Below, piece by piece: positions 33,168 through 63,947 of a stretch of 64,000 bases of DNA. The DNA comes from a virus. Every line of letters begins with the position of its first letter. The stretch's first letter is position 1. A program made the translations under genes and the position numbers. The stretch spans positions 44,664 to 108,663 of the IMG/VR virus record IMGVR_UViG_3300031963_013791; one strand, 5' to 3'. A model generated the notes under the pieces. That model was not told the DNA's origin. It saw only the letters and a program-made list of their open reading frames with translations, and searched no databases.

Positions 33168-33240
33168 GACTAAATTAAAAAATTTTTTTAATTCAAAACA
33201 CCGGAAAAAATGTAAATTAAAAATTTAGATTCGTATATCT

Positions 33241-33340
33241 GTATGAAAATAGCCTCCAGTTTCCGGGCTGCTCGAGCTGGTCCGGACTGTAAAATAACTG
33301 GACAAAAAAAAACCGCCTCCATTTCTGGAAGCGGCTTTTT
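33241..33340 (+). ncRNA. Candidate small RNA 1 (class-2 promoter)
   Basis: The class-2 promoter is at 33211-33240 (TGTAA, 16 bases, CGTATATCT). The following 70 bases are GC-richer than the surroundings and begin GTATGAAAATAGCCTCCAGT; the unit ends in CCGCCTCC/GGAAGCGG with a T run. The terminator is shared with the ParB-like gene, which ends from the other side. No start codon with a meaningful frame follows. Confidence 0.55.
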
Positions 33341-33357
33341 GGGTTGAGACCTTAAAA

Positions 33358-33978
33358 TTAGTTAGCAATCAGGGTTTCAACAAGCGTATTAAGAGAATTG
33401 TTTTGGGACTTGCTGATTTTCTTACCTAAGAAATTCATAATTAGTTCCTTGATTTTCTCTTTACGAGCGTTGTTCTCTGGCTGGGTATTGTTTACCACAG
33501 ATACCGTAGGTTCTGTTTTTTCTTTGCGGGGACGACCACGACCACGCTTAGGTTCGGATACCACTGGTTCTTTTTTCTTTGACGGAGCCGTATCTTCCTT
33601 GTTTTCTTTCAAGCGACGGTCAATCTTTGAATTGATCAATTGCTCAGCCATTTTAACGAATTCCTTTTCGTCTTTAGCTTTACGTAAGATGTTCAAAGCA
33701 TCTGTTCCACGGATTTTTCCAGCTTTAACATAAGACTTCATGCGTGGAGTCATAGAGGCCAGATTGATCAAGTTGTAAACATGAGGCATGGACAACTTGG
33801 TTTCTTTCTGGATGATGGTAGGCTTTATATTATGTTTGGAGGAAAGCTGCTTTACAAGTGTAGCCTCCTTCAACATAGAAAGTTTAACACCATCATTTTT
33901 CTTTTTCAGTTGAGAGAAAATCTCTGCAACATCTGCCGAAAATTTCGGCTTCACGGATTTCGCTTTTGTTCGTGCCAT
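33358..33978 (-). CDS. ParB/KorB-type DNA-binding protein with AT hook
   Basis: 206 aa. Residues 20-110 follow the ParB/KorB helix-turn-helix domain (KPTIIQKETKLSMPHVYNLI, then YVKAGKIRGTDALNIL). The N-terminal nuclease-like domain of ParB is missing. The linker has a classical AT hook, KRGRGRPRK, suited to AT-rich DNA, and a basic tail. It is probably a DNA-binding regulator or partition-type protein. Upstream lies a longer AT-rich gap without a class-1 promoter. Confidence 0.85.
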   Translation of the reverse strand: MARTKAKSVKPKFSADVAEIFSQLKKKNDGVKLSMLKEATLVKQLSSKHNIKPTIIQKETKLSMPHVYNLINLASMTPRMKSYVKAGKIRGTDALNILRKAKDEKEFVKMAEQLINSKIDRRLKENKEDTAPSKKKEPVVSEPKRGRGRPRKEKTEPTVSVVNNTQPENNARKEKIKELIMNFLGKKISKSQNNSLNTLVETLIAN

Positions 33979-34198
33979 TGTAATTGAGTTTTGGGGATTT
34001 AATTTAATTTGTTTTGAATTTTACTGATTAATTAACAATTGACTGTTTGAAACTATATTTGCTTAATCCGATACAAATGTAGATATATTTTATTATCCGT
34101 GTCAAATTTCTTATAAAAGAAATGTTGTAAGTTGCTGATAATCAATCAAATAATTTTTTATTATTTTTTATTATTTTTTTAAATTATTTAATTTTTGA

Positions 34199-34372
34199 TT
34201 ATTTTTTATTAATTCCGAGTTCATTTTCAAGATGCTGGAGCAGGTATTTTGCGTAGCTGGTGAGTATAATATTTTTCTCAAATACGAACTGTTCTCTATG
34301 TTCTGAAACGGCTTTTTCGTAAGAAAGTTTCAGTTCCTTATATTTTTCTAGGTCAAAAACTAATTTATTCAT
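34199..34372 (-). CDS. Small helical protein, 57 aa
   Basis: MNKLVFDLEKYKELKLSYEK, then EHREQFVFEK and a C-terminal LLQHLENELG: a helical hairpin of coiled-coil character. Overlaps the upstream stop in an ATGA. Function unknown. Confidence 0.6.
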   Translation of the reverse strand: MNKLVFDLEKYKELKLSYEKAVSEHREQFVFEKNIILTSYAKYLLQHLENELGINKK

Positions 34373-34791
34373 TTGCTTGAGAATGTTTTTTCAAGTTTAT
34401 CAACGTTAGGTTTACCGATTTCAAATGAATAATCAGGAGCCTTAAAAGTATATTCTCCCTTTTCATCGATCAATAGGGAGAATCTGTACTTTTCAAGACT
34501 TCTAATTTCACGATTAATTTTAACTCGATATCCGGGAGAGCATGGACACATGGAGCATCCACAAAATCTATCCCAGACGACTTTTATTTCATCTTCATTA
34601 AATACTGTTTTAAGATCATTTACAATTTTGTTTAAATGAATTTGACCTTCTGCCGTAAGCCTACCTTTAGCATTACGACGATTTTCAAGTACTTCGAGGG
34701 CATTTTCTCCAATAATGGGTTGCCCTATTGTTTTCGATGCTTCATCATTAAAGAATGATGGATCAAAATAAATTTCTCCAATTGACTTCAT
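34369..34791 (-). CDS. Cys-cluster hypothetical protein, 140 aa
   Basis: Notable Cys-rich motif FCGCSMCPCSPGYRVKI near residue 78, likely a metal site. N-terminal SIGEIYFDPSFFN, C-terminal APDYSFEIGKPNVDK. I recall relatives in flavobacterial phages. Followed 3 bases later by the 57-aa gene through ATGA. Confidence 0.74.
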   Translation of the reverse strand: MKSIGEIYFDPSFFNDEASKTIGQPIIGENALEVLENRRNAKGRLTAEGQIHLNKIVNDLKTVFNEDEIKVVWDRFCGCSMCPCSPGYRVKINREIRSLEKYRFSLLIDEKGEYTFKAPDYSFEIGKPNVDKLEKTFSSK

Positions 34792-34795
34792 AAAA

Positions 34796-35029
34796 TTAAT
34801 TTTCTTGATTTAAATTATATACTTCTTCCTCATCAAGTCCGTGTTGAACTACGGCTTGGTCTTGGATGTGATCAATCAATGCGATGATACCTTCAAGAGC
34901 TTCATACTCTTTAGTTTTTGTAATAGGATTACTATTTGAATCTGTTCTGTATTGAAGTTCCAAAAGAGCTTGTTTTTGGTCTTTTAGAAGTTTCAAATCA
35001 ACATTTTGTATTTTGATATCGTATTGCAT
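34796..35029 (-). CDS. Hypothetical protein, 77 aa
   Basis: MQYDIKIQNVDLKLLKDQKQ followed by a helical segment and an acidic tail (HGLDEEEVYNLNQEN). The opening strand plus helix resembles small phage accessory proteins. First gene after a class-1 promoter. Confidence 0.7.
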   Translation of the reverse strand: MQYDIKIQNVDLKLLKDQKQALLELQYRTDSNSNPITKTKEYEALEGIIALIDHIQDQAVVQHGLDEEEVYNLNQEN

Positions 35030-35046
35030 GATTTAGTTTTTTTGTT

Positions 35047-35073
35047 CAGTACGTTTTTAATTAAAAAAGGTTT
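35047..35073 (-). promoter_or_regulatory. Class-1 promoter
   Basis: AAACC, 15 bases, CGTAC (C in place of the last T) 18 bases before the 77-aa gene. It is placed in the gap after the 99-aa gene's stop. Confidence 0.65.
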
Positions 35074-35075
35074 GA

Positions 35076-35375
35076 CTAAATTACAGAATAGTCGCTTACT
35101 TTTTTAATAATCTTTTTGGATGGCCAGTTTAAATACCTTTCATTTATCTTAAGTGCTAGAAAATAAAGGGTTTGACCACCATTACAAGTCATTATCATTT
35201 GCACATATTCTTCTGCTACGGTACCATCTTTCATTTTATAACGCAGCAATTTTATTGAATTTGTGCTGCCTACATTTCCGATAACCACTGGATTTACTTC
35301 AGAATCCTTTTTTGTTTTTATATAAGCTTTAGCTGTTGAATCTAATCCGACATTAATATTCACAATATTTTTCAT
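35076..35375 (-). CDS. Hypothetical protein, 99 aa
   Basis: MKNIVNINVGLDSTAKAYIK, a beta-rich start, then EEYVQMIMTCNGGQTLYFLA and a basic C-terminal part. Probably soluble. No promoter of either class directly before it. Confidence 0.72.
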   Translation of the reverse strand: MKNIVNINVGLDSTAKAYIKTKKDSEVNPVVIGNVGSTNSIKLLRYKMKDGTVAEEYVQMIMTCNGGQTLYFLALKINERYLNWPSKKIIKKVSDYSVI

Positions 35376-35409
35376 TTTTAACTTCCCTCCACTATCCTTG
35401 ATTTAAAAT

Positions 35410-35649
35410 TTAAATTGTCTCACCCATAAATTCATAGATGATTGTTTTTTGATCTTGTTCAGATAAAATATCCCAAACATCATCATCGACGCAAGTTATC
35501 TTATCCATGAAGTCATCTACATTACGTAGTTCTTGTAATCGTCCATCTACAAAGTAAGAAGTTTGTAGACCTGTATTTGGGTTTTGTAATTTGACTGTAG
35601 GGAGAATACCCGCTACAAATTCATTTCTATTTTCTGGATTACGTGGCAT
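35410..35649 (-). CDS. Hypothetical protein, 79 aa
   Basis: MPRNPENRNEFVAGILPT, PNTGLQTSYFVDGRL, and an acidic C-terminal helix (CVDDDVWDILSEQD). Preceded by AT-rich sequence with TTTAAACGTAAA, a different motif. Function unknown. Confidence 0.7.
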   Translation of the reverse strand: MPRNPENRNEFVAGILPTVKLQNPNTGLQTSYFVDGRLQELRNVDDFMDKITCVDDDVWDILSEQDQKTIIYEFMGETI

Positions 35650-35695
35650 ATCTTTTTTTAATTTAAACGTAAATTTTTATTTTTTGTTACTTATT

Positions 35696-35884
35696 TTATT
35701 TTTCTTCTGTTTCACCGGTTTCAGTGTCCACCTCAAAAGACCTTTCACTATCTATTTCTTTGACATGTACATACCAGTTAGGATTCATTGCTACATTGGC
35801 CAGCAGCATTTCAGCTGCTTCAGCTGGAGATGATGCTTTATAACTCATTGAGAGTTTGCATTCGTACCATTTTTCTTGTTCCAT
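35696..35884 (-). CDS. Hypothetical protein, 62 aa
   Basis: MEQEKWYECKLSMSYKASSP, then AEAAEMLLANVAMNPNWYVHV, and an acidic end. The pattern of one strand, one helix and a strand resembles a small phage domain that is often found duplicated. Confidence 0.7.
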   Translation of the reverse strand: MEQEKWYECKLSMSYKASSPAEAAEMLLANVAMNPNWYVHVKEIDSERSFEVDTETGETEEK

Positions 35885-35887
35885 ATC

Positions 35888-36187
35888 TTATAGATCGTTT
35901 AAAATTTCTCTTGAAGCTATTTTGCGGGACCCAACCCCGGTCGCAAGCACTGCTTGAATTTCTTTATCTAGATCATCTACTGTTTTAAAATTTCTTGGAC
36001 TCATCGGTAAGGATCTCTGAAGTTGCATATTAGATATCGAGAATGGAGTCCCGCTATCTTGCCACCCTCCATAATAAACATAACTCAACACATTATCTTG
36101 ATCTAATATCACACTGAGTGTTTTTGCATTGCCTTGAGGCCCATATGTTGGATCAAACAAGCGGTAAATTATAAGTCTCTTTTTCAT
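35888..36187 (-). CDS. Hypothetical protein, 99 aa
   Basis: Starts MKKRLIIYRLFDPTYGPQGN, followed by YVYYGGWQDSGTPFSIS. Aromatic and beta-rich. The ending is a helix with GSRKIASREILNDL. Gap of 3 bases to the next gene; not recognised. Confidence 0.73.
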   Translation of the reverse strand: MKKRLIIYRLFDPTYGPQGNAKTLSVILDQDNVLSYVYYGGWQDSGTPFSISNMQLQRSLPMSPRNFKTVDDLDKEIQAVLATGVGSRKIASREILNDL

Positions 36188-36190
36188 ATG

Positions 36191-36574
36191 TTATGCTGTT
36201 ATTGATTTTTGAATGTACAGACCGTAGTCCACTGATATAACACTGTCAAATTTCTTTCCGTCCACTATTTCACCGTTATAAACCCAATTAGGTTGAACCC
36301 TTGGATTATAACGAATTCTCTGCTCGTTATCTTTTTCGAAGTTTTCAGTTCGAATCTCAATTTCCTTACAAAGGACCCAAGCACACACTGTTTTATTAGC
36401 ACCGTCAAATATCTTCTGAGCGGTCGTTTTGTAATTCTTCAGTATACAATCATGCATGTTTAATTGAACATCTGTAGGATGATGGTATTCTATTTTACCA
36501 TCCGGATACTCGATTTTCCACTTCATGTAGTTCTTACCGGTACCTAAATTGAATCTTACTTTTATACTTTTCAT
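36191..36574 (-). CDS. Phage-conserved hypothetical protein, 127 aa
   Basis: Sequence pattern familiar from phages and large mobile elements: MKSIKVRFNLGTGKNYMKW, YHHPTDVQLNM, KTVCAWVLCKEIEI, and YNPRVQPNWVYNG. These parts recur together in a family of unknown function. Starts with an ATGA overlap. Confidence 0.82.
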   Translation of the reverse strand: MKSIKVRFNLGTGKNYMKWKIEYPDGKIEYHHPTDVQLNMHDCILKNYKTTAQKIFDGANKTVCAWVLCKEIEIRTENFEKDNEQRIRYNPRVQPNWVYNGEIVDGKKFDSVISVDYGLYIQKSITA

Positions 36575-36792
36575 GCGTCTATTAGGTCTAATTCAGTTAA
36601 AATATTTTTTTCTTCTTCAGTCAGTTCGTCGAAACATTCTACATCACAATACCATAATGAGAATGGTACTTCTGAAAAGAATTCCTCAACTTCAGATTCA
36701 AGGTTTTCTTTTGTTCTACCGTCGATCCGGAATGTGCGGGAAACGTTTGTAGAACTGTTTTTGTCAAAGACATGGATGGTTACCGTTTTCAT
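36571..36792 (-). CDS. Hypothetical protein, 73 aa
   Basis: MKTVTIHVFDKNSSTNVSRT and a later FFSEVPFSLWYCDVECFDELT. A compact beta-alpha protein with two Cys near the C-terminus. Coupled by ATGA to the following gene. Confidence 0.7.
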   Translation of the reverse strand: MKTVTIHVFDKNSSTNVSRTFRIDGRTKENLESEVEEFFSEVPFSLWYCDVECFDELTEEEKNILTELDLIDA

Positions 36793-36793
36793 A

Positions 36794-36961
36794 TTAATCT
36801 TCTTGTAGATATTGTTCTTCTAAGTATAGTGCTATTGTTTCTGGACTTTCACCTTCATTCACCTCCACAACATCGATGTGTTTATGAATTAGTTCTATTG
36901 CTTTTTCTTTTCCGAAACCGTGGTTTTTCATTAGAGCATCTACAACTTGTTTATGTTCCAT
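36794..36961 (-). CDS. Small protein, 55 aa
   Basis: MEHKQVVDALMKNHGFGKEK, then an acidic helix and a basic C-terminal part. A further ATG three codons upstream (36970) is in frame. It is 2 bases before the next gene, with the class-1 promoter just ahead. Confidence 0.6.
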   Translation of the reverse strand: MEHKQVVDALMKNHGFGKEKAIELIHKHIDVVEVNEGESPETIALYLEEQYLQED

Positions 36962-36978
36962 AACTATCATTTTTTAAT

Positions 36979-37005
36979 CAATACGATTTTAAATTAAAAA
37001 GGTTT
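36979..37005 (-). promoter_or_regulatory. Class-1 promoter
   Basis: AAACC, 15 bases, CGTATTGATT, 20 bases from the 55-aa gene start. The rightward gene at 37050 begins beyond it, so the element points away from that gene. Confidence 0.72.
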
Positions 37006-37049
37006 AAAATTTATAAAAAAAAATATATTTATAAGTAAATAAGCTTTTA

Positions 37050-37709
37050 ATGGGAAATATTGAAAAATTAAGGTTTTTGATTAGGTCATTGATTCAAGAA
37101 ACGATCATGACCAAACATTTTATGGATAGAAGGTTTTTAAGACTGGATAGTAGTGATACTGATTTTCCGGGAACTTATCCTAAATTTAGAGAAACAGTAG
37201 ATGACGCTATTAATTTTTTATGGAAAAAAGTGGATTTTGACAAAGACCTAAGACTGGCAATTGAATTAAAATCCCCACAGACATTCACAGCATTTGATAA
37301 GGAAAAAAAAGAATTTTCTAAGGGTGATAGAATTTACTTCTTAGTTCAGCATGGTAATGAACTAGAGACCTTAGTTTTTGATAGAAAGGATAAAGTTGAT
37401 TTAAGGGTTGACTACTATGTTCCTTTTGTAGAATTAAAGAATTTTGTTGTAAACAACAATATTTCTTATTTGACCAGTAAAGAGATTAAACAAATATTAA
37501 AAAAACCAGTACCTGTATCTACTCAACCAAAAGAATTAATTTATTTGGTAAACGGTAAAAAATGGGTTTTTGACAAAGAAGGTTCTAAGTTTTTCGAAAG
37601 AAATAAAAAAGAAAATTCTTATGATGTTTACGACATACTGGATGATAAAATTGAAAATGTCAAATTAACTCAACAACAAAAAGATGAAATATTATCTTAC
37701 TTGCTATAG
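37050..37709 (+). CDS. Hypothetical protein, 219 aa (rightward)
   Basis: One of two rightward genes inside the leftward block. Charged and Lys-rich: MGNIEKLRFLIRSLIQETI, LVQHGNELETLVFDRKDKV, and a C-terminal LTQQQKDEILSYL. No domain or membrane segment; I do not recognise it. Ends overlap the converging gene by 13 bases. No class-1 promoter faces it. Confidence 0.75.
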   Translation: MGNIEKLRFLIRSLIQETIMTKHFMDRRFLRLDSSDTDFPGTYPKFRETVDDAINFLWKKVDFDKDLRLAIELKSPQTFTAFDKEKKEFSKGDRIYFLVQHGNELETLVFDRKDKVDLRVDYYVPFVELKNFVVNNNISYLTSKEIKQILKKPVPVSTQPKELIYLVNGKKWVFDKEGSKFFERNKKENSYDVYDILDDKIENVKLTQQQKDEILSYLL

Positions 37710-38068
37710 TAATATTTAACATTTTCAAGAAAACTCCACTCTCTTAAACTTAAGTTTTTACTACCAATATCATTAACTTTTTCTAGAACATCATTAAGAT
37801 ATAATACTTCTTTTTCTGGTACTAGTGCTTTTACATTTTTCTCGTACCCGTTTTCTTTAATGTATATTTTAAGTTTTTCTATTGAGTCGTCATACACATC
37901 GCAGTATGCTACCTGTTTACCTTCCTCGTGATTAGTTCTTTCAAAAAAATGCCATGCCTCCTTCAAGAAGGCAAGTAAAATATCCTCTGACCTTGCGATT
38001 ATCAAGATATTAGTCCAATCACACCATCCTATTTTAACCAAATCTACTGAAGAAGGATTATCGTTCAT
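37697..38068 (-). CDS. Hypothetical protein, 123 aa
   Basis: I chose the ATG of MNDNPSSVDLVKIG, directly after the upstream stop, over one 16 codons earlier. Contains WCDWTNILIIARSEDILLAF and a Lys-rich tail ending in SFLENVKYYYSK. Its 3' end overlaps the rightward gene by 13 bases. Confidence 0.7.
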   Translation of the reverse strand: MNDNPSSVDLVKIGWCDWTNILIIARSEDILLAFLKEAWHFFERTNHEEGKQVAYCDVYDDSIEKLKIYIKENGYEKNVKALVPEKEVLYLNDVLEKVNDIGSKNLSLREWSFLENVKYYYSK

Positions 38069-40845: not shown

Positions 40846-40875
40846 AGATATACGACTTTAAAAAACTAATTTACA
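40846..40875 (-). promoter_or_regulatory. Class-2 promoter, leftward
   Basis: TGTAA, 16 bases, then CGTATATCT on the minus strand, 95 bases upstream of the same gene. Shows that class-2 elements can drive protein genes as well as small RNAs. Confidence 0.68.
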
Positions 40876-46576: not shown

Positions 46577-46629
46577 AAGGTTAAAATTAAAAACAAAAAT
46601 GTAAATTAATTTTTAATTATCGTATATCT

Positions 46630-46749
46630 TATTTGGGATTTGACCCCTGTTTTCCCCGGATCTGGACCAGTCGATCTGGTTTATCCACCAGAGAATAACA
46701 GTTTGAAAAAGTATAGAAACAAAAAAAGGAGGTCGATTTGACCTCCTTT
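46630..46749 (+). ncRNA. Candidate small RNA 2 (class-2 promoter)
   Basis: The class-2 promoter is at 46600-46629. The transcript would start near TATTTGGGATTTGACCCCTG, contain several GC-rich segments (GGATCTGG, CCAGTCGATCTGG) and end at an AGGAGGT/ACCTCCT hairpin with a T run, shared with the converging 99-aa gene. It belongs to the sub-type with the TTTGGGATTTGACCCC leader. Confidence 0.6.
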
Positions 46750-46770: not shown

Positions 46771-47070
46771 CTATGTTTTGCCGTTAGATGATTTATCGAA
46801 ATCGGGCATCTCTAAATCATCATTATTACTATTTTGTTTTTTACTTGTAAACCTTGATAGGAAACTCTCTTGCGTTTGAATTGATTCTCCTTCTTTGAGT
46901 CGCCTTTTCGCTAACAATCCAATAAGCAAACCAACAAAAGGAGTTAAGAACAAACTCGTAACAAATAGTGTCCAAAACCCGACATCCTTTTCCTTTGACA
47001 TTTGTGCTACGATATAAGCACAGCCAATCAAAAACCCAAGTAGAAATAGTGTATCCAAGAAATCTTCCAT
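46771..47070 (-). CDS. Two-pass membrane protein, 99 aa
   Basis: Two hydrophobic helices (FLLGFLIGCAYIVAQM and FWTLFVTSLFLTPFVGLLIGLL), then a basic and polar tail with QNSNNDDLEMPDFD. Function unknown; the C-terminal tail may be intracellular. Class-1 promoter 25 bases upstream. Confidence 0.76.
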   Translation of the reverse strand: MEDFLDTLFLLGFLIGCAYIVAQMSKEKDVGFWTLFVTSLFLTPFVGLLIGLLAKRRLKEGESIQTQESFLSRFTSKKQNSNNDDLEMPDFDKSSNGKT

Positions 47071-50500: not shown

Positions 50501-50543
50501 AAAAAAATAAAAATGTAATTTAACTTTTTCAAATCGTATATCT

Positions 50544-50644
50544 GATCGAAAATTACCCCCCGGAAAACGCCGTCGCTGCCAGAAAATTCTGGGCGTTGGG
50601 GAGAGAAATAAAAAAAAGGGCTCGGAATTATCCGAACCCTTTCG
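50544..50644 (+). ncRNA. Candidate small RNA 3 (class-2 promoter)
   Basis: The class-2 promoter is at 50514-50543 (TGTAA, 16, CGTATATCT). The leader starts GATCGAAAATTACCCCCC; an internal GCCAGAA/TTCTGGC hairpin and then GGGCTCGGA/TCCGAACCC with a T run follow. A GGGAGA motif is in the 3' part. Confidence 0.6.
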
Positions 50645-50664: not shown

Positions 50665-51357
50665 TTAACTTTCTGCTTTGAGTAATTTGCGATACTCTTT
50701 TTCAGTCAAGTGTCTTGCTTCTTTGAGTAAAGGTTTGCTACTATCTATTGGTTTCACAAACACGCAATCACCTTGTCGCAAAATCTCTTTAATGTTACCC
50801 TCTGCAACATTGGTTTGAATTGTCCACGCAATACATTGAATTGCGTTTATCTCTTTTTTTGTTTCTGAATTGAAATACCAATATGAACCACCTTTTGTTC
50901 TATTTGTTTCAAACACACTTTTCAAATCAACCCAAATCATATACCTTCTATCAGTTGAGGTATCTTTGAACCTTACAAAATGACTATCTTCCATTGTTCT
51001 CCCCCACTTACTTGAACCAAATACTTCACCTTTAACTTCACACAACTCATAGGTATCATTGTATTTTTCTTTAACAAGATTACCATTACTATCAATAAAG
51101 TTTGAAACCTTTTCAATAGTTTCTTTACTCAAAACTTTTGGTTTAACTTGCTCTGAAAGTCGTTCAAGTCCTAAACACAAAATAGCAACTCTCCTCTCCT
51201 CTATATTTTCAATTTGAGCAATCTCACCAAAACTCATTGGTTGAATATCATTCCAAATCTCATTTAATTGCTCATAGGGAGAGTGTTCGTGTTTTAGTTT
51301 GAGCAAACGACAACCCACATTAAAATCAAACTTTGTATTTTCAATTACTATTTTCAT
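50665..51357 (-). CDS. Hypothetical protein, 230 aa
   Basis: Two-part: a helical N-terminal domain (PMSFGEIAQIENIEERRVAI) and a C-terminal region with CEVKGEVFGSSKWGRTMEDSH and GSYWYFNSETKKE. I recall related proteins in flavobacterial phages. Soluble; function unknown. Class-1 promoter 30 bases ahead. Confidence 0.78.
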   Translation of the reverse strand: MKIVIENTKFDFNVGCRLLKLKHEHSPYEQLNEIWNDIQPMSFGEIAQIENIEERRVAILCLGLERLSEQVKPKVLSKETIEKVSNFIDSNGNLVKEKYNDTYELCEVKGEVFGSSKWGRTMEDSHFVRFKDTSTDRRYMIWVDLKSVFETNRTKGGSYWYFNSETKKEINAIQCIAWTIQTNVAEGNIKEILRQGDCVFVKPIDSSKPLLKEARHLTEKEYRKLLKAES

Positions 51358-52887: not shown

Positions 52888-53002
52888 AATAAAAAAGATA
52901 TTTATATGAACCTTTTTTATACATAAATATAAGTTCTAAAATAATAAATAAAGGTGTAACATAAACCAAAAATGTAAATTAGTTTTTGAATATCGTATAT
53001 CT

Positions 53003-53100
53003 CTTTGGGATTTGACCCCAGTTTTCCCCGGGATCGCCTGCGGGAAACATCTTGGATACAGCGGGATAAAAAAAAAGGGCTCGGAAACCCGAACCCTTTT
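53003..53100 (+). ncRNA. Candidate small RNA 4 (class-2 promoter)
   Basis: The class-2 promoter is at 52973-53002. The leader CTTTGGGATTTGACCCCAG shares the TTTGGGATTTGACCCC sub-type with RNAs 2 and 9. GC-rich middle (CGGGATCGCCTGCGGG). Ends in GGGCTCGGAAACCCGAACCC with T run, as in RNA 3. Confidence 0.6.
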
Positions 53101-53118: not shown

Positions 53119-53340
53119 CTAAACACACATTGTTGTTTTTACAAACTTCCTTGTTTTAAGGAAATTACGAATAATTGTAATTTTAGAGGTAAGTCCATTC
53201 ACCTTTCGATGATTTCTGACACTCTCCATCATTTCTTCGTGTATTCGCAAATTAGCATTGTCATAGTTCGCAGTTTTTAAGTTACTTCCAAACATTGACT
53301 TAATAATAATTTCGTTTTGTTCGTCTATGCTTCTTTTCAT
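53119..53340 (-). CDS. Hypothetical basic protein, 73 aa
   Basis: MKRSIDEQNEIIIKSMFGSN, then HEEMMESVRNHRKVNGLTSK, ends with a strand and basic residues. Start chosen near the promoter. Soluble, unknown. Confidence 0.7.
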   Translation of the reverse strand: MKRSIDEQNEIIIKSMFGSNLKTANYDNANLRIHEEMMESVRNHRKVNGLTSKITIIRNFLKTRKFVKTTMCV

Positions 53341-53388: not shown

Positions 53389-53506
53389 AACGAAAATAAT
53401 AAAATTTTATAATTTATTATAATTTTATTTTAATTAAATCTAAATCATCTCATTATCAAACTATTTAATTAAGAAATGTAAATTACTTTTTTCAATTCGT
53501 ATATCT

Positions 53507-53603
53507 GATCGAAAATAACCCCCTGTTTTCACCAGACACGGGCTTCTGAGTTCCAGAAACGGGTAGAAAACAAAAAACCCCCAACTTTTCAGTTGAGGGT
53601 TTT
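53507..53603 (+). ncRNA. Candidate small RNA 5 (class-2 promoter)
   Basis: The class-2 promoter is at 53477-53506. Leader GATCGAAAATAACCCCCTG of the GATCGAAAAT sub-type, then GTTTTCACC, a GGGCTTCTGAG region and a CCCCCAAC/GTTGAGGG terminator with T run. Shared with the converging Api92-like gene. Confidence 0.6.
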
Positions 53604-53624: not shown

Positions 53625-54509
53625 CTAATACTTTATTTTTTCAGTAATAGGTTTAATGTATTCATACAATTCATACTTAACACATAAGTTTACTAATTTG
53701 CCTTTTACCGAATAAAACTTTTCTTCATCTTCACAATTTTCAAATATACTTTCTAAAAAAGTATCCCTTCTTGTTTCATCAGTAATAATATCTGCAACAT
53801 CTTCTTCTAATTCATTATCCCATTCTTCGTTTGAATAATAAGATAAACTCCAACCCAAATGTTCACTCATATCACCATCACTTTTTATACTTAAAGCAAA
53901 TTTAGTTGCTTCGTAACCATTAGGTAAATATTCTTTGACCAAATTACCATTGTCAAATACATAAATCCCACAATTATTTCCAATATCCTCATCAGCAAAC
54001 TTCACTTCAAATAATAAATCAGGATATAATTCTGCAAGTTTATGAATGACTGGAAAAGGAGTTGACCACGCAGTATCGAATGAAATTGAATTTTCGCTTA
54101 TTTGATAGTTGTCATAAGAATTCCATTTAGTTCCCCAATTAGCAATACTCCAACCATACCAATTAGCGTGTCCATATTTTTCAATGTTATCTAATGATAT
54201 TTTTGCTTCCTCAAAATCTTGGGGAGAAAGCCTTTCATTTAAAAGTTGCTTTACACCCTCAACATCAGTAATGCCTTGTTCTTTAATCCAACTCCACTCC
54301 AACATTTCAGTAAATCTTTGAGTGTTATTTATCAAAATACATATAGCATTATCAACATTACTTCCTGATGTAACCCTCAACGAAGGTGGCATAGGGAGAA
54401 TTTTGTCAAAGTCAATTAAATTTTCATCTTCTTTTATGAAATCTAAAACTTCTTTTACCCTTTGCTCACTTCCTTTAATTGTGAGGATATTTGTAATGTG
54501 ATTAGGCAT
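53625..54509 (-). CDS. DUF1281/Api92-like ferredoxin-fold protein
   Basis: 294 aa. MPNHITNILTIKGSEQRVKEVL at the start, then DFDKILPMPPSL, AWSTPFPVIHKLAELYPDL, and GNLVKEYLPNGYEATKFAL. These are the marks of the phage Api92/DUF1281 family, with a ferredoxin-like N-terminal domain. Function unproven. Full length; soluble. A GGGAGA motif occurs within its coding DNA. Confidence 0.85.
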   Translation of the reverse strand: MPNHITNILTIKGSEQRVKEVLDFIKEDENLIDFDKILPMPPSLRVTSGSNVDNAICILINNTQRFTEMLEWSWIKEQGITDVEGVKQLLNERLSPQDFEEAKISLDNIEKYGHANWYGWSIANWGTKWNSYDNYQISENSISFDTAWSTPFPVIHKLAELYPDLLFEVKFADEDIGNNCGIYVFDNGNLVKEYLPNGYEATKFALSIKSDGDMSEHLGWSLSYYSNEEWDNELEEDVADIITDETRRDTFLESIFENCEDEEKFYSVKGKLVNLCVKYELYEYIKPITEKIKY

Positions 54510-56038: not shown

Positions 56039-56081
56039 AAGAAAATAAAAATGTAAATTATCTTTTTAGGATCGTATATCT

Positions 56082-56191
56082 TGTCTGGAATTTGACACCT
56101 AGGGCCAGCAGTCCCGTCCAGTCAATTTCAGGATTCCACCAGAGAAAATCAGGACAAAAAAAAAGAGAGCCAATTTCTTGACTCTCCTTTT
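56082..56191 (+). ncRNA. Candidate small RNA 6 (class-2 promoter)
   Basis: The class-2 promoter is at 56052-56081. The leader is TGTCTGGAATTTGACACCTAG (short conserved part TGGAATTTGACACC matches the TTTGACCCC type). GC-rich middle GGGCCAGCAGTCCCG; ends GAGAGCCAA/TTGACTCTC with T run, shared with the converging gene at 56210. Confidence 0.58.
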
Positions 56192-56209: not shown

Positions 56210-56416
56210 TCAATTCAAGTAATCAAACCCAAAGTGAATAAATCCTATTTCAATTAAATCATCATCAGACATCTTTTTAGGGTTTCTCCAAAAGTTAGGT
56301 TCTTGTTTATTCTCATCCTCTATAAGTTCACTAATCCTTTTCAAAGCACCTTCATAGGTGAATTTCTTATCACCATCCGTTCTTTCAGTTTCAATAAACT
56401 CATATTTAATTCTCAT
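56210..56416 (-). CDS. Hypothetical protein, 68 aa
   Basis: MRIKYEFIETERTDGDKKFT, then YEGALKRISELIEDENKQEP and GFIHFGFDYLN. Start chosen 1 base after the upstream stop; a longer frame overlaps that gene. The TYExAL motif also occurs in genes at 58850 and 61203. Unknown. Confidence 0.72.
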   Translation of the reverse strand: MRIKYEFIETERTDGDKKFTYEGALKRISELIEDENKQEPNFWRNPKKMSDDDLIEIGFIHFGFDYLN

Positions 56417-59134: not shown

Positions 59135-59151
59135 TTTTTCCTTTTTTTAAT

Positions 59152-59178
59152 CAATACGCTTTTTAATTAAAAAGGTTT
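59152..59178 (-). promoter_or_regulatory. Class-1 promoter
   Basis: AAACC, 15 bases, CGTATTGATT; for the 94-aa gene. Confidence 0.76.
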
Positions 59179-59222
59179 AAGCTGAATCGAACTGACTAAA
59201 CCTAAACTTTTCAAATTTAGTT

Positions 59223-59248
59223 ATACGAAAGAAAAAAGATATTTTACA
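59223..59248 (-). promoter_or_regulatory. Class-2-like promoter, leftward
   Basis: TGTAA, 16 bases, CGTATAACT (AA instead of TC near the end). Faces left toward the 94-aa gene, divergent from the class-2 promoter of small RNA 7 about 12 bases away. Confidence 0.55.
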
Positions 59249-59289
59249 CTTTATAAAAATGTAAATTAGTTTTTTAAGATCGTATATCT

Positions 59290-59433
59290 GATTATAAATA
59301 TCCACCAGTTTTCACCGTCGACTGCCAGAAATTTCACCGTAAACCAAAATACCGAGTTTGGCACATTTTTACTTCCGAAAATGTCTTGTAAAAGATTAAC
59401 ATAAAAAAGAAAAAGCCGCATCTCTGCGGCTTT
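59290..59433 (+). ncRNA. Candidate small RNA 7 (class-2 promoter)
   Basis: The class-2 promoter is at 59260-59289. Leader GATTATAAATATCCACCAGTTTTCACC, a longer middle region (about 110 nt) and an AAGCCGCA/TGCGGCTT terminator with T run. The longest of the nine. Confidence 0.57.
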
Positions 59434-59455
59434 ATCAATATAATCATTCCTTTGA

Positions 59456-60049
59456 TTACACAATCTTTATTTTACGATTATCAATGTAAATGAATTTTAC
59501 ATTATCAATCCCCACATTGAAAGTTCCAAATGCCTCATCACCTCTAATTCCCAAATTGTAACTTCCTTTTGTAGATTTAATCAAAAATGTTTTTAATTGC
59601 TCTAATTGAAATTCAGTCGCCTTAACTCCATCAACATAATACTCCGTAAAAGTACTCTCGTTTGAATTAGGATTAGTATAAACCCTCAAATACTTAATTG
59701 CAGGATTATCTTTCTTTACAGCAATAACATAGTTATCTCTGCCGTCAGATGATTCCACATAAGTTGATTCAGGTTTATATTCACCCTCAATACCCTTTTG
59801 CTCCCTTTGATTGTTACCTTTAGTAGAAGCACTTGTATTGCAACCAAAACCCCACTTTGAAACTTTACGAACTCTACCAATAAAAGGATTACCCCTTTTA
59901 TTCATTTTAGGTTCAGTGTCCGAAACCATACTTCCATAAGTATGACTACCACCACGAACATTTTCCATAAAGGAAATAAATTCATCTTTACTCATTACTT
60001 CGTGAGAAATCTGATTGCAGATTTGCTCCATTCTTTGTTCTTTGGTCAT
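59456..60049 (-). CDS. Hypothetical protein, 197 aa
   Basis: N-terminal helical part (MTKEQRMEQICNQISHEVM), then RKVSKWGFGCNTSAST, VKATEFQLEQLKTFLIKST and a strand-rich end. I recall a similar family from flavobacterial phages. Soluble; unknown. Confidence 0.77.
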   Translation of the reverse strand: MTKEQRMEQICNQISHEVMSKDEFISFMENVRGGSHTYGSMVSDTEPKMNKRGNPFIGRVRKVSKWGFGCNTSASTKGNNQREQKGIEGEYKPESTYVESSDGRDNYVIAVKKDNPAIKYLRVYTNPNSNESTFTEYYVDGVKATEFQLEQLKTFLIKSTKGSYNLGIRGDEAFGTFNVGIDNVKFIYIDNRKIKIV

Positions 60050-60074
60050 TTTGCGATTTTTTTTAGGTTAATAT

Positions 60075-60101
60075 CAATACGGATTTTTTTGTAAAAGGTT
60101 T
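60075..60101 (-). promoter_or_regulatory. Class-1 promoter
   Basis: AAACC, 15 bases, CGTATTGAT; about 28 bases from the 197-aa gene. Confidence 0.72.
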
Positions 60102-60198
60102 AATAAAACCCCCACATATATAATACGCAGTAACACCACCAAATCTTTAGTGTAAAATTAAAATATTTTTTAACTTATTGAAAATCAGTATAAAAGAA

Positions 60199-60224
60199 AA
60201 AGTCCCGGACTTCGGGACTTTTTT
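60199..60224 (-). terminator. Rho-independent terminator
   Basis: AAAGTCCCG/CGGGACTTT hairpin with a T run, ahead of the class-1 promoter at 60075 and downstream of the 88-aa gene. Confidence 0.75.
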
Positions 60225-60279
60225 CTAACCACTATGAAACACAATAAACAATTATAGAACCGAAACAAATATACACAAA

Positions 60280-60546
60280 TTACTTATTCTTAACACTATA
60301 ACTGTAAGATGAAAAAATAGTCCTATTGACAAATTCTTTTGTGCTTTCGCTAAATTCAAAACATTTCAATCCGTGAAGAATATTTTTTTCTCCAATACAA
60401 TCCACTTCTTTCATAAGAAAGGTAATGAATTTCTCATACACAATATCTTCTCTCATATTATATCTTTTGCTGATGTGAGCAGAAACCTTTTTTAGAGTTG
60501 GATGCTTTGTAACATAATCCTCAATCACTTTTCTTTGGGTAATCAT
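60280..60546 (-). CDS. Hypothetical protein, 88 aa
   Basis: MITQRKVIEDYVTKHPTLKK, then HISKRYNMREDIVYEKFIT and SYSYSVKNK. Basic-helical, may bind nucleic acid. Has both a class-1 and a class-2 promoter. Confidence 0.73.
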   Translation of the reverse strand: MITQRKVIEDYVTKHPTLKKVSAHISKRYNMREDIVYEKFITFLMKEVDCIGEKNILHGLKCFEFSESTKEFVNRTIFSSYSYSVKNK

Positions 60547-60572
60547 ATTGAGTTTAGTTTTAGTTTTACTTA

Positions 60573-60599
60573 CAATACGGATAATTAAAAAAAAGGTTT
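60573..60599 (-). promoter_or_regulatory. Class-1 promoter
   Basis: AAACC, 15 bases, CGTATTGTAA (TT then G, weaker end); 27 bases from the 88-aa gene. Confidence 0.65.
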
Positions 60600-60659
60600 A
60601 AGAAATTATTTTACAGTTAAATCCTGAAGAACAGTAAAAAACTGGATAATTTAATTTTT

Positions 60660-60689
60660 AGATATACGATTGTTAAAAGTTATTTTACA
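60660..60689 (-). promoter_or_regulatory. Class-2 promoter, leftward
   Basis: TGTAA, 16 bases, CGTATATCT on the minus strand, 110 bases upstream of the 88-aa gene and divergent from the promoter of small RNA 8. Confidence 0.66.
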
Positions 60690-60740
60690 TATTAGGAGCA
60701 ATTCATTTTACATATTAGGAGCAATTCATTTTACATATTG
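60682..60740. repeat. Tandem 23-bp repeats with TTTTACATATT
   Basis: Two perfect copies of a 23-bp unit (ATTTTACATATTAGGAGCAA then TTC) and a partial third, placed between two divergent class-2 promoters. The repeated TTACA is the complement of the -35 TGTAA. Confidence 0.72.
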
Positions 60741-60775
60741 TAAAATGTAAATTAGTTTTTTCTTTTCGTATATCT

Positions 60776-60867
60776 GATCGAAAATGTGCCTGCTGTTCGA
60801 GCTGGAGTATCGCCTCAAGTTCAGGAATTACAGCAAAAAAAAATCCCCGCTGATTTGCGGGGATTCT
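60776..60867 (+). ncRNA. Candidate small RNA 8 (class-2 promoter)
   Basis: The class-2 promoter is at 60746-60775. Leader GATCGAAAATGTGCCTGC; internal GCTGTTCGAGCTGG; ends AATCCCCGC/GCGGGGATT with T run. Belongs to the GATCGAAAAT sub-type. Tandem repeats sit just upstream. Confidence 0.6.
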
Positions 60868-60888
60868 CAATTCTATAACAATGATATA

Positions 60889-61182
60889 TTATTCTTCTTC
60901 TTCTTTGTATTCTCCTAATTCACTTTTAGGAGCCACCAAAACATTACCGAGTATTTTAAGATTTTTCAAATTGTTTTTTTCACAATATACCTTACTTGCT
61001 ATTTCATTTAAAGGTAAGTCAAAATACAAACCCTTACTATTCATTACCATAAATTCATCTCCGCAAGGCATTATACTAATCGAACCCGATACAATATCTT
61101 CTAACTCTTCTTTGGAATATTCCAAATCATTTTCGGGTGTACTATCAATTATTTTACTTTCACAAGTTATTATTTTTCCCAT
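60889..61182 (-). CDS. DUF3846 family protein, 97 aa
   Basis: MGKIITCESKIIDSTPENDL, then SKEELEDIVSGSISIMPCGDEFMVMN, SKGLYFDLPLNEIA and a final LVAPKSELGEY. Matches the DUF3846 pattern (short start, ELQxxVGGxIE, N-E-x-G, PLNxxA). An acidic tail. I used the ATG of MGKIIT. A paralogue lies at 62908. Confidence 0.82.
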   Translation of the reverse strand: MGKIITCESKIIDSTPENDLEYSKEELEDIVSGSISIMPCGDEFMVMNSKGLYFDLPLNEIASKVYCEKNNLKNLKILGNVLVAPKSELGEYKEEEE

Positions 61183-61202
61183 AGTTTTCAATTTTACTAT
61201 AT

Positions 61203-61565
61203 TTATTCAGGAATAATTAATTGCATAGCTTGTTCGTAGGTCATATCCATTTTTGTAATCGTTATTTTTGAAACAATTAACATTTCACCATTATCTTTTG
61301 AGGTGGGAAAATATACAAACAAACTATTATTTATTTCTGCATCTGATAAAAAACGAGCATAATATGCACTTACATCACTTGCATCTTCCTTGACATCATA
61401 GAAATCATTATAACGAATAAAACCGATACGAAAGACATTTCCTTGCCCTTGTATCAGTTTAACCATAACTGGATGTTTGAAATCCTTTGGCTTTGAAACG
61501 TTTTTATTTTGCCCATACGTATTGGTAGAGAAAAGCAAAATAAAAATAATAAATAATTTTTTCAT
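61203..61565 (-). CDS. Secreted protein, 120 aa
   Basis: Signal peptide MKKLFIIFILLFSTNTYGQ, then a mature basic-acidic mix with MVKLIQGQGNVFRIGFIRY and MTYEQAMQLI at the C-terminus. Envelope-associated or exported; unknown. Confidence 0.8.
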   Translation of the reverse strand: MKKLFIIFILLFSTNTYGQNKNVSKPKDFKHPVMVKLIQGQGNVFRIGFIRYNDFYDVKEDASDVSAYYARFLSDAEINNSLFVYFPTSKDNGEMLIVSKITITKMDMTYEQAMQLIIPE

Positions 61566-61575
61566 ATTTTTTATT

Positions 61576-61683
61576 TTAACATATAATCCAAATAACTATT
61601 GCTGCAAAAATAACTTGTATAAGGGAGAAAGTTAGGATTGCCTCTAATCCTTCTTTCCAATTTTCTTTGAATGATTCTATCAT
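61576..61683 (-). CDS. Tiny membrane protein, 35 aa
   Basis: MIESFKENWKEGLEAILTFS, then IQVIFAAIVIWIIC: one membrane helix after a charged N-terminal half. Ends 10 bases before the secreted-protein start. GGGAGA is found in its coding DNA (plus strand). Confidence 0.52.
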   Translation of the reverse strand: MIESFKENWKEGLEAILTFSLIQVIFAAIVIWIIC

Positions 61684-61739
61684 TTTTATTTAATTTAATT
61701 AGGTTTATTTATTGATATTTTTTTTAGGGAGAAACCAAT

Positions 61740-61964
61740 CTACATCCTGCTCATAGTATTTTGTAGTTGATAATACTTATCTACAACCTCATTAATCTTG
61801 CTCATATCACCATAGTGAATGTTTTTCAAATTAATAAAATGTGTCTTATTTGAACCTTTCAAACGATAATTGAATTTTACTTCACTCCCATCCTCAAACT
61901 CAATAAACGAAACATCCTTTTTGAAGATTTGCTGAATAATGTGAGCTGCTTGATATAGTTTCAT
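61740..61964 (-). CDS. Hypothetical protein, 74 aa
   Basis: MKLYQAAHIIQQIFKKDVSF, then FNYRLKGSNKTHFINLKNIH. Basic, with helical and strand parts. Twelve bases after the next gene's stop. Unknown. Confidence 0.7.
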   Translation of the reverse strand: MKLYQAAHIIQQIFKKDVSFIEFEDGSEVKFNYRLKGSNKTHFINLKNIHYGDMSKINEVVDKYYQLQNTMSRM

Positions 61965-61975
61965 ATAAGTTTTTT

Positions 61976-62302
61976 TTAGTAAGCTGACAAACTTCTATTT
62001 TGTATTTGTTCAAATGTAGTAGCACTCCACTCGTCGTGCAATTCATTCGTTTTTTTGTGATAATATCTTGCTAAAACCTCTGCTATCTCTTCTAATTTTG
62101 AATTTTCTTGCCAATCTGTTATTGTGCAATCATTTCCAATTCTTGATAACATTCCACCACCTAAATAATTTTGGTATGCCGTCATCTTTTCTCCCTCAAA
62201 ACCAAATGAAGACAAATCAATTTCAACACCACCACCACGATAATCTACTTTTTCACGAAGAATACTGCTTTCTATAATTTCTTTGATTTTATCGTTTTTC
62301 AT
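61976..62302 (-). CDS. Phage-conserved hypothetical protein, 108 aa
   Basis: GGGVEIDLSSFGFEGEKMTAY, then QNYLGGGMLSRIGNDCTITD, and a helical end. The segment EGEKMTAYQNYLGGGML is familiar from flavobacterial phages. Soluble. Class-1 promoter ahead. Confidence 0.8.
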   Translation of the reverse strand: MKNDKIKEIIESSILREKVDYRGGGVEIDLSSFGFEGEKMTAYQNYLGGGMLSRIGNDCTITDWQENSKLEEIAEVLARYYHKKTNELHDEWSATTFEQIQNRSLSAY

Positions 62303-62307
62303 ATTAT

Positions 62308-62334
62308 CAATACGAATTAGGGAGAAAAAGGTTT
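62308..62334 (-). promoter_or_regulatory. Class-1 promoter
   Basis: AAACC, 15 bases (with TCTCCC inside), CGTATTGATA; only 8 bases from the 108-aa gene. Confidence 0.74.
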
Positions 62335-62719
62335 AAATAATATTTCTCTTTTTTGATACGTCGATCAAATCATCACACTTCTCAATCATCTCTACCATAT
62401 TCTCGATTTCAATCCCATCACAAATTGTCAACTTTCTCAATTTATCCAATGATTGTTTTAGGGTATCCTTTGTCTGATTCAGCAAATCCAAATCAACAGC
62501 AAGTTTTGATTCCACATCCCTACGAGTTTCACCATCATTTGAACAACGTAACTGCAAAGTCCTCAAAGATTTCTCAAACCCATCAGGCCTAAATGAAATT
62601 TCACCCACCTTAATCCACGCCTTTGCCTTTATAATTTCCGGACACGGTTTCTTGTTCACCATCTCGTAAGCACTCGTGTACTCCGATTTCAACTGCTCAA
62701 AATTGTCTGTCTTGTTCAT
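62333..62719 (-). CDS. Hypothetical helical protein, 128 aa
   Basis: MNKTDNFEQLKSEYTSAYEM, AKAWIKVGEISFRPDGFEK, then KLAVDLDLLNQTKDTLKQ and a Glu/Lys-rich end. Coiled-coil propensity is strong. Not recognised. Confidence 0.74.
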   Translation of the reverse strand: MNKTDNFEQLKSEYTSAYEMVNKKPCPEIIKAKAWIKVGEISFRPDGFEKSLRTLQLRCSNDGETRRDVESKLAVDLDLLNQTKDTLKQSLDKLRKLTICDGIEIENMVEMIEKCDDLIDVSKKRNII

Positions 62720-62749
62720 TTTAAATTTAGATTTATTTAATTGTTTAGT

Positions 62750-62857
62750 TTACAATGCTTTAGCTAACTCATCAAATACATAATACCATAGGGCAATAAG
62801 TCCACCCCAATAAACTATGCTAATTGTAAAATTATAAATAATTCTTTTATGTTCCAT
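62750..62857 (-). CDS. Tiny membrane protein, 35 aa
   Basis: MEHKRIIYNFTISIVYWGGL, then IALWYYVFDELAKAL: one membrane helix. Between two larger genes. Function unknown. Confidence 0.5.
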   Translation of the reverse strand: MEHKRIIYNFTISIVYWGGLIALWYYVFDELAKAL

Positions 62858-62907
62858 CTTTAAAGAGGTTTTTTATAAGTTTTAAAATAAAATATATAAT
62901 TTTTAAT

Positions 62908-63180
62908 TTAATCTATTTCCCCCTCATCAGCGAGTAACACGTCCCCAACAATCACATCAGTCATCCCATAGTGTTTTTGGAAAATCTCCGTTGCCTTTGA
63001 ATTTATCTCAAAACCATTCAATTTACCCTCCTCGTTCAAAACAAGGAATTTATTTCCCACACCCACAATTTCAATATATCCATCAACGAACCCCTGTAGT
63101 TCCTTCAGTGAAAATCCATGCCCCTTTTTGCTGGGATAAACTTCACTAACATCCCCGTTTGCTTTCATTAATATTCCCAT
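62908..63180 (-). CDS. DUF3846 family protein, 90 aa
   Basis: MGILMKANGDVSEVYPSKKGHG, FSLKELQGFVDGYIEIVGVG, NEEGKLNGFEINSKATEI and VGDVLLADEGE: a full DUF3846 pattern. Paralogue of 60889. Unknown function; found in phages and Bacteroidota elements. Confidence 0.87.
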   Translation of the reverse strand: MGILMKANGDVSEVYPSKKGHGFSLKELQGFVDGYIEIVGVGNKFLVLNEEGKLNGFEINSKATEIFQKHYGMTDVIVGDVLLADEGEID

Positions 63181-63197
63181 AGTTTTATCTTTTTAAT

Positions 63198-63224
63198 CAA
63201 TACGTTTTTTAATTCAAAAGGTTT
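63198..63224 (-). promoter_or_regulatory. Class-1 promoter
   Basis: AAACC, 15 bases, CGTATTGATT; precedes the DUF3846 gene. Confidence 0.75.
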
Positions 63225-63678
63225 AATTCTTAACCCAATTTAATTTATATGTAGGGTTATATCTTCCTTCCGAACAATTTCCACAAGATTGACTTTTGTT
63301 TGTTTTTCTGAACCTTGTAAATACTTTGTTGCAACCACAACAAGTCGCTGAATAATTTCCTTTGACAGTTTCTACTTCATTTGAACTATAACACCTTTCG
63401 CCATCACATCCAATCTGAATTGCTTTCGCTCTCCAAACTTCATTATGTCCTTCCTTCGGACAAAGTGCGTGAGCAATTTCGTGCAAGATTGTATTCTTAA
63501 CCCTACTCATTTCGTTTAATTCAGTCAAATACACTGATAATGTAATTCGCTTTGAACGATACTTGCAACAACCAAACCTTCTTTTTGCATTGTCAAATTC
63601 AAATCTCCAACCCTGCTGAACTATTCCGTGTTTAGTCATAAGTTGAATTGCCAAATCTTTTGCTTCGTTGAGTTTCAT
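63223..63678 (-). CDS. SprT-like zinc metallopeptidase
   Basis: 151 aa. SprT pattern: NTILHEIAHALCPKEGHNEVW (HExxH and a distal His), and a C-terminal zinc ribbon (CCGCNKVFT... CGNC). Members of the family (SPRTN in eukaryotes) degrade DNA-protein crosslinks; the role in phage is unproven. The start was set at MKLNEAKDL because the class-1 -10 element lies at the alternative start 18 bases upstream. Confidence 0.88.
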   Translation of the reverse strand: MKLNEAKDLAIQLMTKHGIVQQGWRFEFDNAKRRFGCCKYRSKRITLSVYLTELNEMSRVKNTILHEIAHALCPKEGHNEVWRAKAIQIGCDGERCYSSNEVETVKGNYSATCCGCNKVFTRFRKTNKSQSCGNCSEGRYNPTYKLNWVKN

Positions 63679-63697
63679 AATAGGTGGTTTATACATT

Positions 63698-63724
63698 CAA
63701 TACGGATAAAATAAAAAAAGGTTT
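63698..63724 (-). promoter_or_regulatory. Class-1 promoter
   Basis: AAACC, 15 bases, CGTATTGAA; ends next to the longer possible start codon, favouring the internal start of the SprT gene. Confidence 0.76.
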
Positions 63725-63755
63725 AAGACCACCACAAAACTATTTTCAAAAATTT

Positions 63756-63785
63756 AGATATACGAATATGAATATTTAAATTACA
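63756..63785 (-). promoter_or_regulatory. Class-2 promoter, leftward
   Basis: TGTAA, 16 bases, CGTATATCT on the minus strand; divergent pair with that of the last small RNA, about 10 bases apart. Confidence 0.68.
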
Positions 63786-63825
63786 TTATCAAAAATGTAA
63801 ATTAGTTTTTTTAATTCGTATATCT

Positions 63826-63947
63826 TGTTTGGGATTTGACCCCTGTAAACGCCAGATCCGGGCTAGGAAACAGGTTCTAGCGGGAGAGATTGGAAATTAT
63901 GCGGGAGAGATAAAAACAAAAAACCCACAACTTCCGTTGCGGGTTTC
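63826..63947 (+). ncRNA. Candidate small RNA 9 (class-2 promoter)
   Basis: The class-2 promoter is at 63796-63825. Leader TGTTTGGGATTTGACCCCTG, two GCGGGAGAGAT repeats in the 3' half (each holding GGGAGA), and a CCCACAAC/GTTGCGGG terminator with T run. Shared with the gene that ends from the right. Confidence 0.6.

Follow-up and report, generated by a model that had tools for sequence, protein, structure and literature searches.

Repeated, probably non-coding transcription units form a family in a giant phage

The 64-kb window analyzed here—positions 44664-108663 of the 108,663-base virus record IMGVR_UViG_3300031963_013791—carries nine short gene-free units, each consisting of an exact copy of a two-box promoter (class 2), a core rich in guanine and cytosine (GC), and a hairpin that abuts a gene arriving from the other side. 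All nine had been listed in a preliminary description of the window and are real; the family is larger, with 14 gene-free units in the phage. Together, they form a real multi-copy family whose members are probably non-coding transcription units of a giant phage, unmatched to described families in the searches made. Two further records stem from the same phage: G001 (222 kb; 99.96% identity over 12.4 kb) and G002 (217 kb; 100% identity over the 9.9 kb compared). The three phage records were joined by script into 448,460 bases, and coordinates in the "joined sequence" refer to that assembly. The gene content of the phage includes tail-sheath proteins, its own DNA polymerase, and a DnaB-like helicase. 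The GC content of the window is 31%.

The class-2 promoter reads TGTAA-N16-CGTATATCT and features 13 exact matches in the window, nine rightward and four leftward. The rightward ones start at 33211, 46600, 50514, 52973, 53477, 56052, 59260, 60746, and 63796; all nine places named in the preliminary description hold the motif. The leftward ones end at 24076, 40875, 60689, and 63785. In addition, a leftward site with one mismatch lies at 59248 and one with two mismatches at 24808, the latter inside the + strand open reading frame (ORF) 24176-25027 and probably a chance match. With up to two mismatches allowed, the window contains 15 sites, compared with 0.67 (standard deviation, sd, 0.83; maximum 3) in 100 dinucleotide shuffles, and the pattern read backwards as a control has 0 matches in the window. 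The joined sequence contains 23 class-2 sites at up to one mismatch (19 exact), all within 198.8-246.3 kb—a single 48-kb arc. Gene-free units with no reading frame ahead of the hairpin follow 14 of these 23 sites, 12 of the 13 rightward ones among them, and nine sites precede protein genes. In eight of these nine, a class-1-like promoter lies between the class-2 site and the protein gene, as judged by eye. Divergent pairs are common: seven of the 10 leftward sites have a rightward partner no more than 60 bp away. The class-1 promoter, AAACC-N16-GTATTGAT, heads most leftward transcription units of the arc: 50 sites (up to one mismatch, spacer 16 or 17) occur in the joined sequence, 46 of them within 198-246 kb and 45 of them leftward. 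A -10-like GTAT core and the spacing are common to both classes.

The nine window units lie on the + strand, and the genes facing them on the - strand. The promoter is taken as the exact match to the pattern and the putative RNA as the stretch from promoter end to hairpin end. Unit 1 has its promoter at 33211..33240, its RNA at 33241..33334 (94 nucleotides, nt), and its hairpin at 33313-33334, and faces the gene 33358-33978. Unit 2 follows at 46600..46629 (RNA 46630..46746, 117 nt; hairpin 46728-46746) and faces the gene 46771-47070; unit 3, at 50514..50543 (RNA 50544..50639, 96 nt; hairpin 50618-50639), faces the gene 50665-51357. The promoter of unit 4 lies at 52973..53002 (RNA 53003..53096, 94 nt; hairpin 53077-53096), with the stop of the facing gene at 53119, and that of unit 5 at 53477..53506 (RNA 53507..53599, 93 nt; hairpin 53578-53599), opposite the gene 53625-54509. 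Unit 6 starts with its promoter at 56052..56081 (RNA 56082..56186, 105 nt; hairpin 56165-56186) and has the facing stop at 56210. The promoters of the last three units are divergent from leftward class-2 sites: unit 7 at 59260..59289 from the site at 59248 (RNA 59290..59430, 141 nt; hairpin 59415-59430; facing gene 59456-60049), unit 8 at 60746..60775 from that at 60689 (RNA 60776..60864, 89 nt; hairpin 60843-60864; facing stop 60889), and unit 9 at 63796..63825 from that at 63785 (RNA 63826..63943, 118 nt; hairpin 63924-63943), where the facing 57-amino-acid frame leaves the window. The five further gene-free units beyond the window are G001:14571+, 16317+, 19145+, 19936-, and 19123-. Over their overlap, G001 and the window record show just two single-base differences, at 56246 and 60808, the latter (T to C) falling within RNA unit 8; the three bases 60892-60894 of the window are absent from G001.

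All nine window units contain an A-rich run and a hairpin. The GC content of nt 10-59 ranges from 0.44 to 0.62 across them, compared with the 31% of the window, and the GC-richer stretch without a sensible frame described beforehand is thus borne out over 89-141 nt as apparently non-coding. Small proteins of 20-45 residues are a very improbable product. ATG frames of at least 10 codons exist in just two of the 14 units, with 34 and 44 codons (33211 and 60746), and several TTG or GTG frames are present; the other 12 units have no ATG frame of this length, 10 of the 14 have no ATG at all, and, as seen by eye, indels that break the frame separate the similar bodies of 63796 and G001:16317. Judged from these frames, the units are best called non-coding.

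The cores resemble each other outside promoter and hairpin. With both removed, the 14 cores reach a summed pairwise local-alignment score of 1615, compared with 1163 (sd 21) in dinucleotide shuffles, 0 of 100 of which reach 1615; conservation beyond promoter and terminator no better than chance, which the preliminary description had named as speaking against a family, is not what these scores give. The first 30 nt of the cores score 1247 versus 899 (sd 17) in shuffles, and the parts beyond nt 30 score 1170 versus 992 (sd 24), above all 100 shuffles. In leave-one-out profile searches of the 448 kb, the held-out core tops every non-member in six of 14 runs, falls under the best non-member in three (one on the wrong strand), and is missed in five. 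A profile built from all 14 cores reveals no additional copy in the 448 kb. As judged by this sequence similarity, the 14 cores are a real paralogous family. Its recognizable common part appears to be a 5′ head of ~30 nt, since profiles without the first 22 nt barely recover the cores, and the body appears variable. The head occurs in two forms, near GATC-GAAAATNACCCC and TTTGGRATTTGACCCC, common to much of the family. A GGGGAGAGATAAAAA-type segment recurs at core 3′ ends and directly upstream of some promoters; these segments are, by eye, visible signs of duplication. The earlier proposal of a small-RNA family, possibly spread by duplication, is partly supported, by the homology of the cores and by the signs of duplication; folding and helix tests revealed no conserved structure. 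Two more occurrences of the head word TTGGRATTTGA lie at a strand switch, at 246.6-246.8 kb in the joined sequence (G001 about 20.2-20.4 kb). This stretch carries the head-word copies TTGGGATTTGACC and TTTGGAATTTGACG together with repeats of GGATCAACCAAC, and is possibly an origin or a set of unit remnants.

In the nascent put antiterminator RNA of phage HK022, two stem-loops are conserved. A cis-acting leader of this kind—in which the nascent 5′ RNA would make the polymerase resist terminators or pauses, and the gene-free copies would yield read-through antisense RNA—is an unlikely explanation of the units. It would fit the position of the conserved part in the first ~30 nt of the putative transcript, the weakness of the hairpin on the RNA strand, and the leaders of nine class-2 mRNA sites, which resemble the unit cores (1416 versus 1246, sd 23). 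Moreover, the best non-member in 11 of the 14 leave-one-out runs is one of two class-2 mRNA leader regions; however, eight of these 11 matches lie on the strand opposite to the leader, so that a shared leader element is weakly supported. Against such a leader, the hairpin precedes any co-directed gene in 14 of the 23 copies, and G001:19145+ and, less clearly, 17829- have a terminator in the RNA's own direction. Conserved helices like those of put were not found in the units by helix tests and consensus folding, which have weak power on a poor alignment.

The helix tests, three in number, covered the 14 cores and five mRNA leaders. A conserved three-way junction with a closing helix P1 looks convincing by eye, but the complement of the arm at nt 11-23 reaches only 0.117 against shuffles, and this candidate was rejected. 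Pairing of the 5′ segment with the first loop yields 0.017—uncorrected, one of three tests, and picked after viewing the sequences—and is not claimed; the third test yields 0.577. The folding z-scores of the 14 units average about -0.7 for the RNA strand and -0.85 for the opposite one, with values below -2.7 on the RNA strand in two units alone. The units may also be by-products, namely class-2 promoters and flanks duplicated in an early-type arc, whose RNAs are functionless and whose terminators are needed by convergent units. This explanation is improbable as well. It would account for the strong divergence of the cores past nt 22-30, for the conserved structure that was not found, and for the commonness of divergent promoter pairs (seven of 10 leftward sites); it sits poorly with GC-rich cores kept in a phage of 31% GC, with similarity past nt 30 above all 100 shuffles, and with exact promoter boxes kept ahead of no gene.

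The hairpin is common to the unit and the facing gene in 13 of the 14 units; the remaining one, G001:19145+, ends in a stem of its own with T8 behind it. Pairing on the RNA strand is interrupted in 10 of the 13 stems by a mid-stem mismatch, bulge, or internal loop. Mostly this is a C facing an A, a position that forms a U.G pair on the other strand; several loops read GAAA there. Stem stability favors the opposite strand in 11 of 13 cases; the two strands are equal in 46600, and in 60746 the opposite strand is slightly less stable. Read on the other strand, the unit's A run corresponds to the U tract in the terminator of the opposing gene: 6-8 of 8 positions are T there, versus 3-6 of 8 on the RNA strand, and the tract is richer on the opposite strand in 12 of 13 cases and equal in one. 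Since both stem stability and U tract favor the opposite strand, the hairpin is built as the terminator of the facing gene. The stop codons of the facing genes lie 22-25 bp past the hairpin in all 10 cases measured among the 13 hairpins, with ATG frames of at least 60 amino acids taken for the measurement. Eight of these belong to window units, and the 57-residue frame facing 63796 stops ~49 bp from the hairpin, so that the leftward gene ending opposite each unit, as reported before, is confirmed. Strong terminators follow nine of 10 unit-facing genes versus six of 99 other genes (Fisher p 1.1e-8), the facing genes of three units being left out as uncalled under the script's rule; the single unit-facing gene scored without a strong terminator has a stem with an internal loop. 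There is little selection in this comparison, because units stand behind 12 of the 13 rightward class-2 sites, and the rarity of strong terminators elsewhere in the arc indicates that the hairpin goes with the module. The preliminary description had given each unit its own terminator: a hairpin is indeed present in all nine and goes with the module, but it is optimized for the opposing gene (11 of 13 stems, 12 of 13 U tracts). Most simply, the hairpin would be a two-way stop that bars facing transcription from the RNA gene and is a less efficient terminator for the RNA itself.

A phage sigma factor gene, a candidate reader of the class-1 or class-2 promoters, lies at 25219..25896 on the + strand (PF08281, 3.8e-12; PF04542, 5.6e-9). 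A tblastn search with 25219-25896 matches 31 phage records, at 24-30% identity among the 20 listed, mostly annotated as sigma factors. The phage features three distinct sigma-factor genes: two in G002 and the one at window 25219-25896, which recurs in G002. The former pair lies adjacent at G002 68303-69475 on the - strand, with open frames of 312 and 302 amino acids. The two-box promoter format is typical of extracytoplasmic function (ECF) sigma promoters, and the resemblance of classes 1 and 2 to this format makes a phage sigma factor a reasonable reader; by this analogy, class-2 promoters are possibly read by one. The RNA polymerase domain PF00623, the only polymerase family searched, was not found in the phage. 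Protein sponges of the CsrB/RsmZ type carry repeated GGA motifs and have CsrA as their partner. CAGGA occurs in six of the 14 cores versus 1.6 expected, and searches of the three phage records for CsrA and Hfq found neither at E up to 0.001. Antisense action against phage mRNAs gained no support from a comparison within the phage: the longest exact matches equal those of shuffles, apart from a 19-nt match of 60746, which is its own locus, left unmasked owing to a one-base difference between records.

In the window, nothing except tRNA reaches the Rfam gathering threshold; permissive Rfam scans give 14 matches in window 32900-64000 and eight in G001 12000-20000, all below gathering. The layout of the units is likewise unmatched in the literature searched, namely open-licence papers; the preliminary description, too, named no known phage RNA family of this kind. 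Scans of viral contigs for the class-2 promoter return the same phage, with seven other loci added by a looser pattern, and a scan of genome contigs returns five loci; each of the 12 outside loci falls within an open frame of 100 codons or more, and none is followed by such a unit. A class-1 scan adds one contig, with the match inside a gene. An Api92-like neighbor gene matches three distant loci (34-45%), and repeat searches in two of these three found nothing comparable. A related phage, G003, has a DNA polymerase 86% identical in the best segment and shares pieces of >800 bases at 65-85% DNA identity. Its alignment to the joined sequence is confined to 312-448 kb, outside the 48-kb arc; its contig stops short of the arc, so that the relative's version is not seen.

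The favored explanation is a multi-copy paralogous family of short trans-acting non-coding phage RNAs with a common 5′ head. Each unit comprises a class-2 promoter, a head of ~30 nt (common in its two forms to much of the family), and a GC-rich body that varies between units and measures about 30-80 nt; 13 of the 14 units also have a hairpin back-to-back with the terminator of the facing gene. The class-2 promoters would be read by one of the phage sigma factors together with host RNA polymerase. The hairpin would halt transcription of the facing gene before it crosses the unit, and would probably end the RNA as well. The RNAs would act in trans: a shared partner from host or phage would bind the common head, and the variable body would supply each RNA with a target or binding face of its own. 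Several results weigh against this. Eight of the 14 held-out whole cores fail in the leave-one-out search, and removal of the first 22 nt leaves a profile that sees just two of 14 cores, both below the best non-member. Folding energy is mildly low, no better than on the reverse strand, and the consensus fold of the 14 copies (RNAalifold on MAFFT alignments) has 0 pairs and no covariation, on a poor alignment with weak power. The optimization of the hairpin on the opposite strand leaves efficient termination of the RNA not assured, and the terminator association is partly circular, because the hairpin was one mark of a unit. Matches and complements of the cores elsewhere in the phage are no longer than in shuffles, and promoter-pattern scans and the neighbor-gene search found no homologue of the units in another phage. 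Taken as a whole, the explanation by trans-acting RNAs has about an even chance of being right. Its extension to a phage-owned network, in which one sigma factor would drive fourteen paralogous RNAs, duplicated through the early-gene arc, insulated, and jointly acting on host or phage transcripts in takeover, is possible but doubtful.

Further features accompany the units. The leftward class-2 promoters of the window, all on the - strand, lie at 24047..24076 ahead of a protein gene (ORF 23777-23992, -), at 40846..40875, at 59219..59248 (one mismatch), and at 63756..63785, each of these three ahead of a class-1 promoter and a gene, and at 60660..60689 ahead of a class-1-like promoter (by eye) and a gene. 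A 45-bp stretch at window 40940-40984 matches six Prevotella Lak megaphage records at 93.5% DNA identity, the sole megablast match of query 33001-58000 within the phage collection. The gene at window 1197-3596 (-) encodes a 799-amino-acid enzyme resembling pyruvate phosphate dikinase or phosphoenolpyruvate synthase (PF01326, 9e-118; PF02896; PF00391), which seems an unusual phage cargo. Three tRNA-like genes at window 6896-7003 (-), 11193-11293 (-), and 29626-29725 (-) have near-identical acceptor, D, and T arms (GTCAGGTGGCGGAAT...GACGC...ACAGGTTCGAATCCTGTCCTGACTA), while their middles, at the expected anticodon and variable arm positions, differ and are unusually long. They score 33-42 bits with Rfam tRNA and are uncalled by ARAGORN in standard mode; with introns allowed, 6896-7003 and 11193-11293 appear, among the matches listed, as intron-containing Ala and Asn tRNAs.

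The nearest literature includes a review of phage small RNAs (PMC12197685, in its available part). In the giant phage phiKZ, according to the available part of the report, two non-coding RNA candidates were described, of which the first is regarded as a processing product of a 3′ untranslated region (PMC8545117). The likeness lies in an intergenic non-coding RNA of ~100 nt with a possible terminator hairpin at its end in a giant phage; the difference lies in the number, with two candidates there and many promoter-bearing paralogues here, the latter known from sequence alone. For cyanophage S-CREM1, the accessible text describes many non-coding RNA genes predicted through Rfam matches (PMC9964418); one phage with many predicted RNA genes is common to both cases, whereas the units here lack a gathering-level match. 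The put RNA of HK022, so far as the available text goes, is an RNA element from the early part of phage transcripts (PMC9378689), comparable to the 5′ position seen here; it differs in its stem-loops, none of which were found conserved in the units, and in that the units mostly do not lie upstream of co-directed genes. The phage small RNAs met in these partly available sources are single finds or Rfam-type sets, and a promoter-defined multi-copy family in one giant phage would be a test case for RNA-based host takeover. The combination of a dedicated promoter, a gene-free GC-rich core, and a facing terminator would serve as a search signature for similar families. RybB and MicA are bacterial small RNAs controlled by sigma-E, and lambda OOP is a short, terminator-ended antisense phage RNA against a neighboring gene. 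Like the units, the sigma-E system consists of several short RNA genes behind a single type of alternative-sigma promoter, as described in the available part of PMC1804206. It differs in that the units belong to a phage, form 14 paralogous copies, have no Hfq in the phage records, and would be linked to a sigma factor by inference. With OOP, the units share a short phage RNA transcribed against a neighbor and ended by a terminator; unlike OOP, they occur in many copies, and their hairpins end 22-25 bp before the facing stop where measured.

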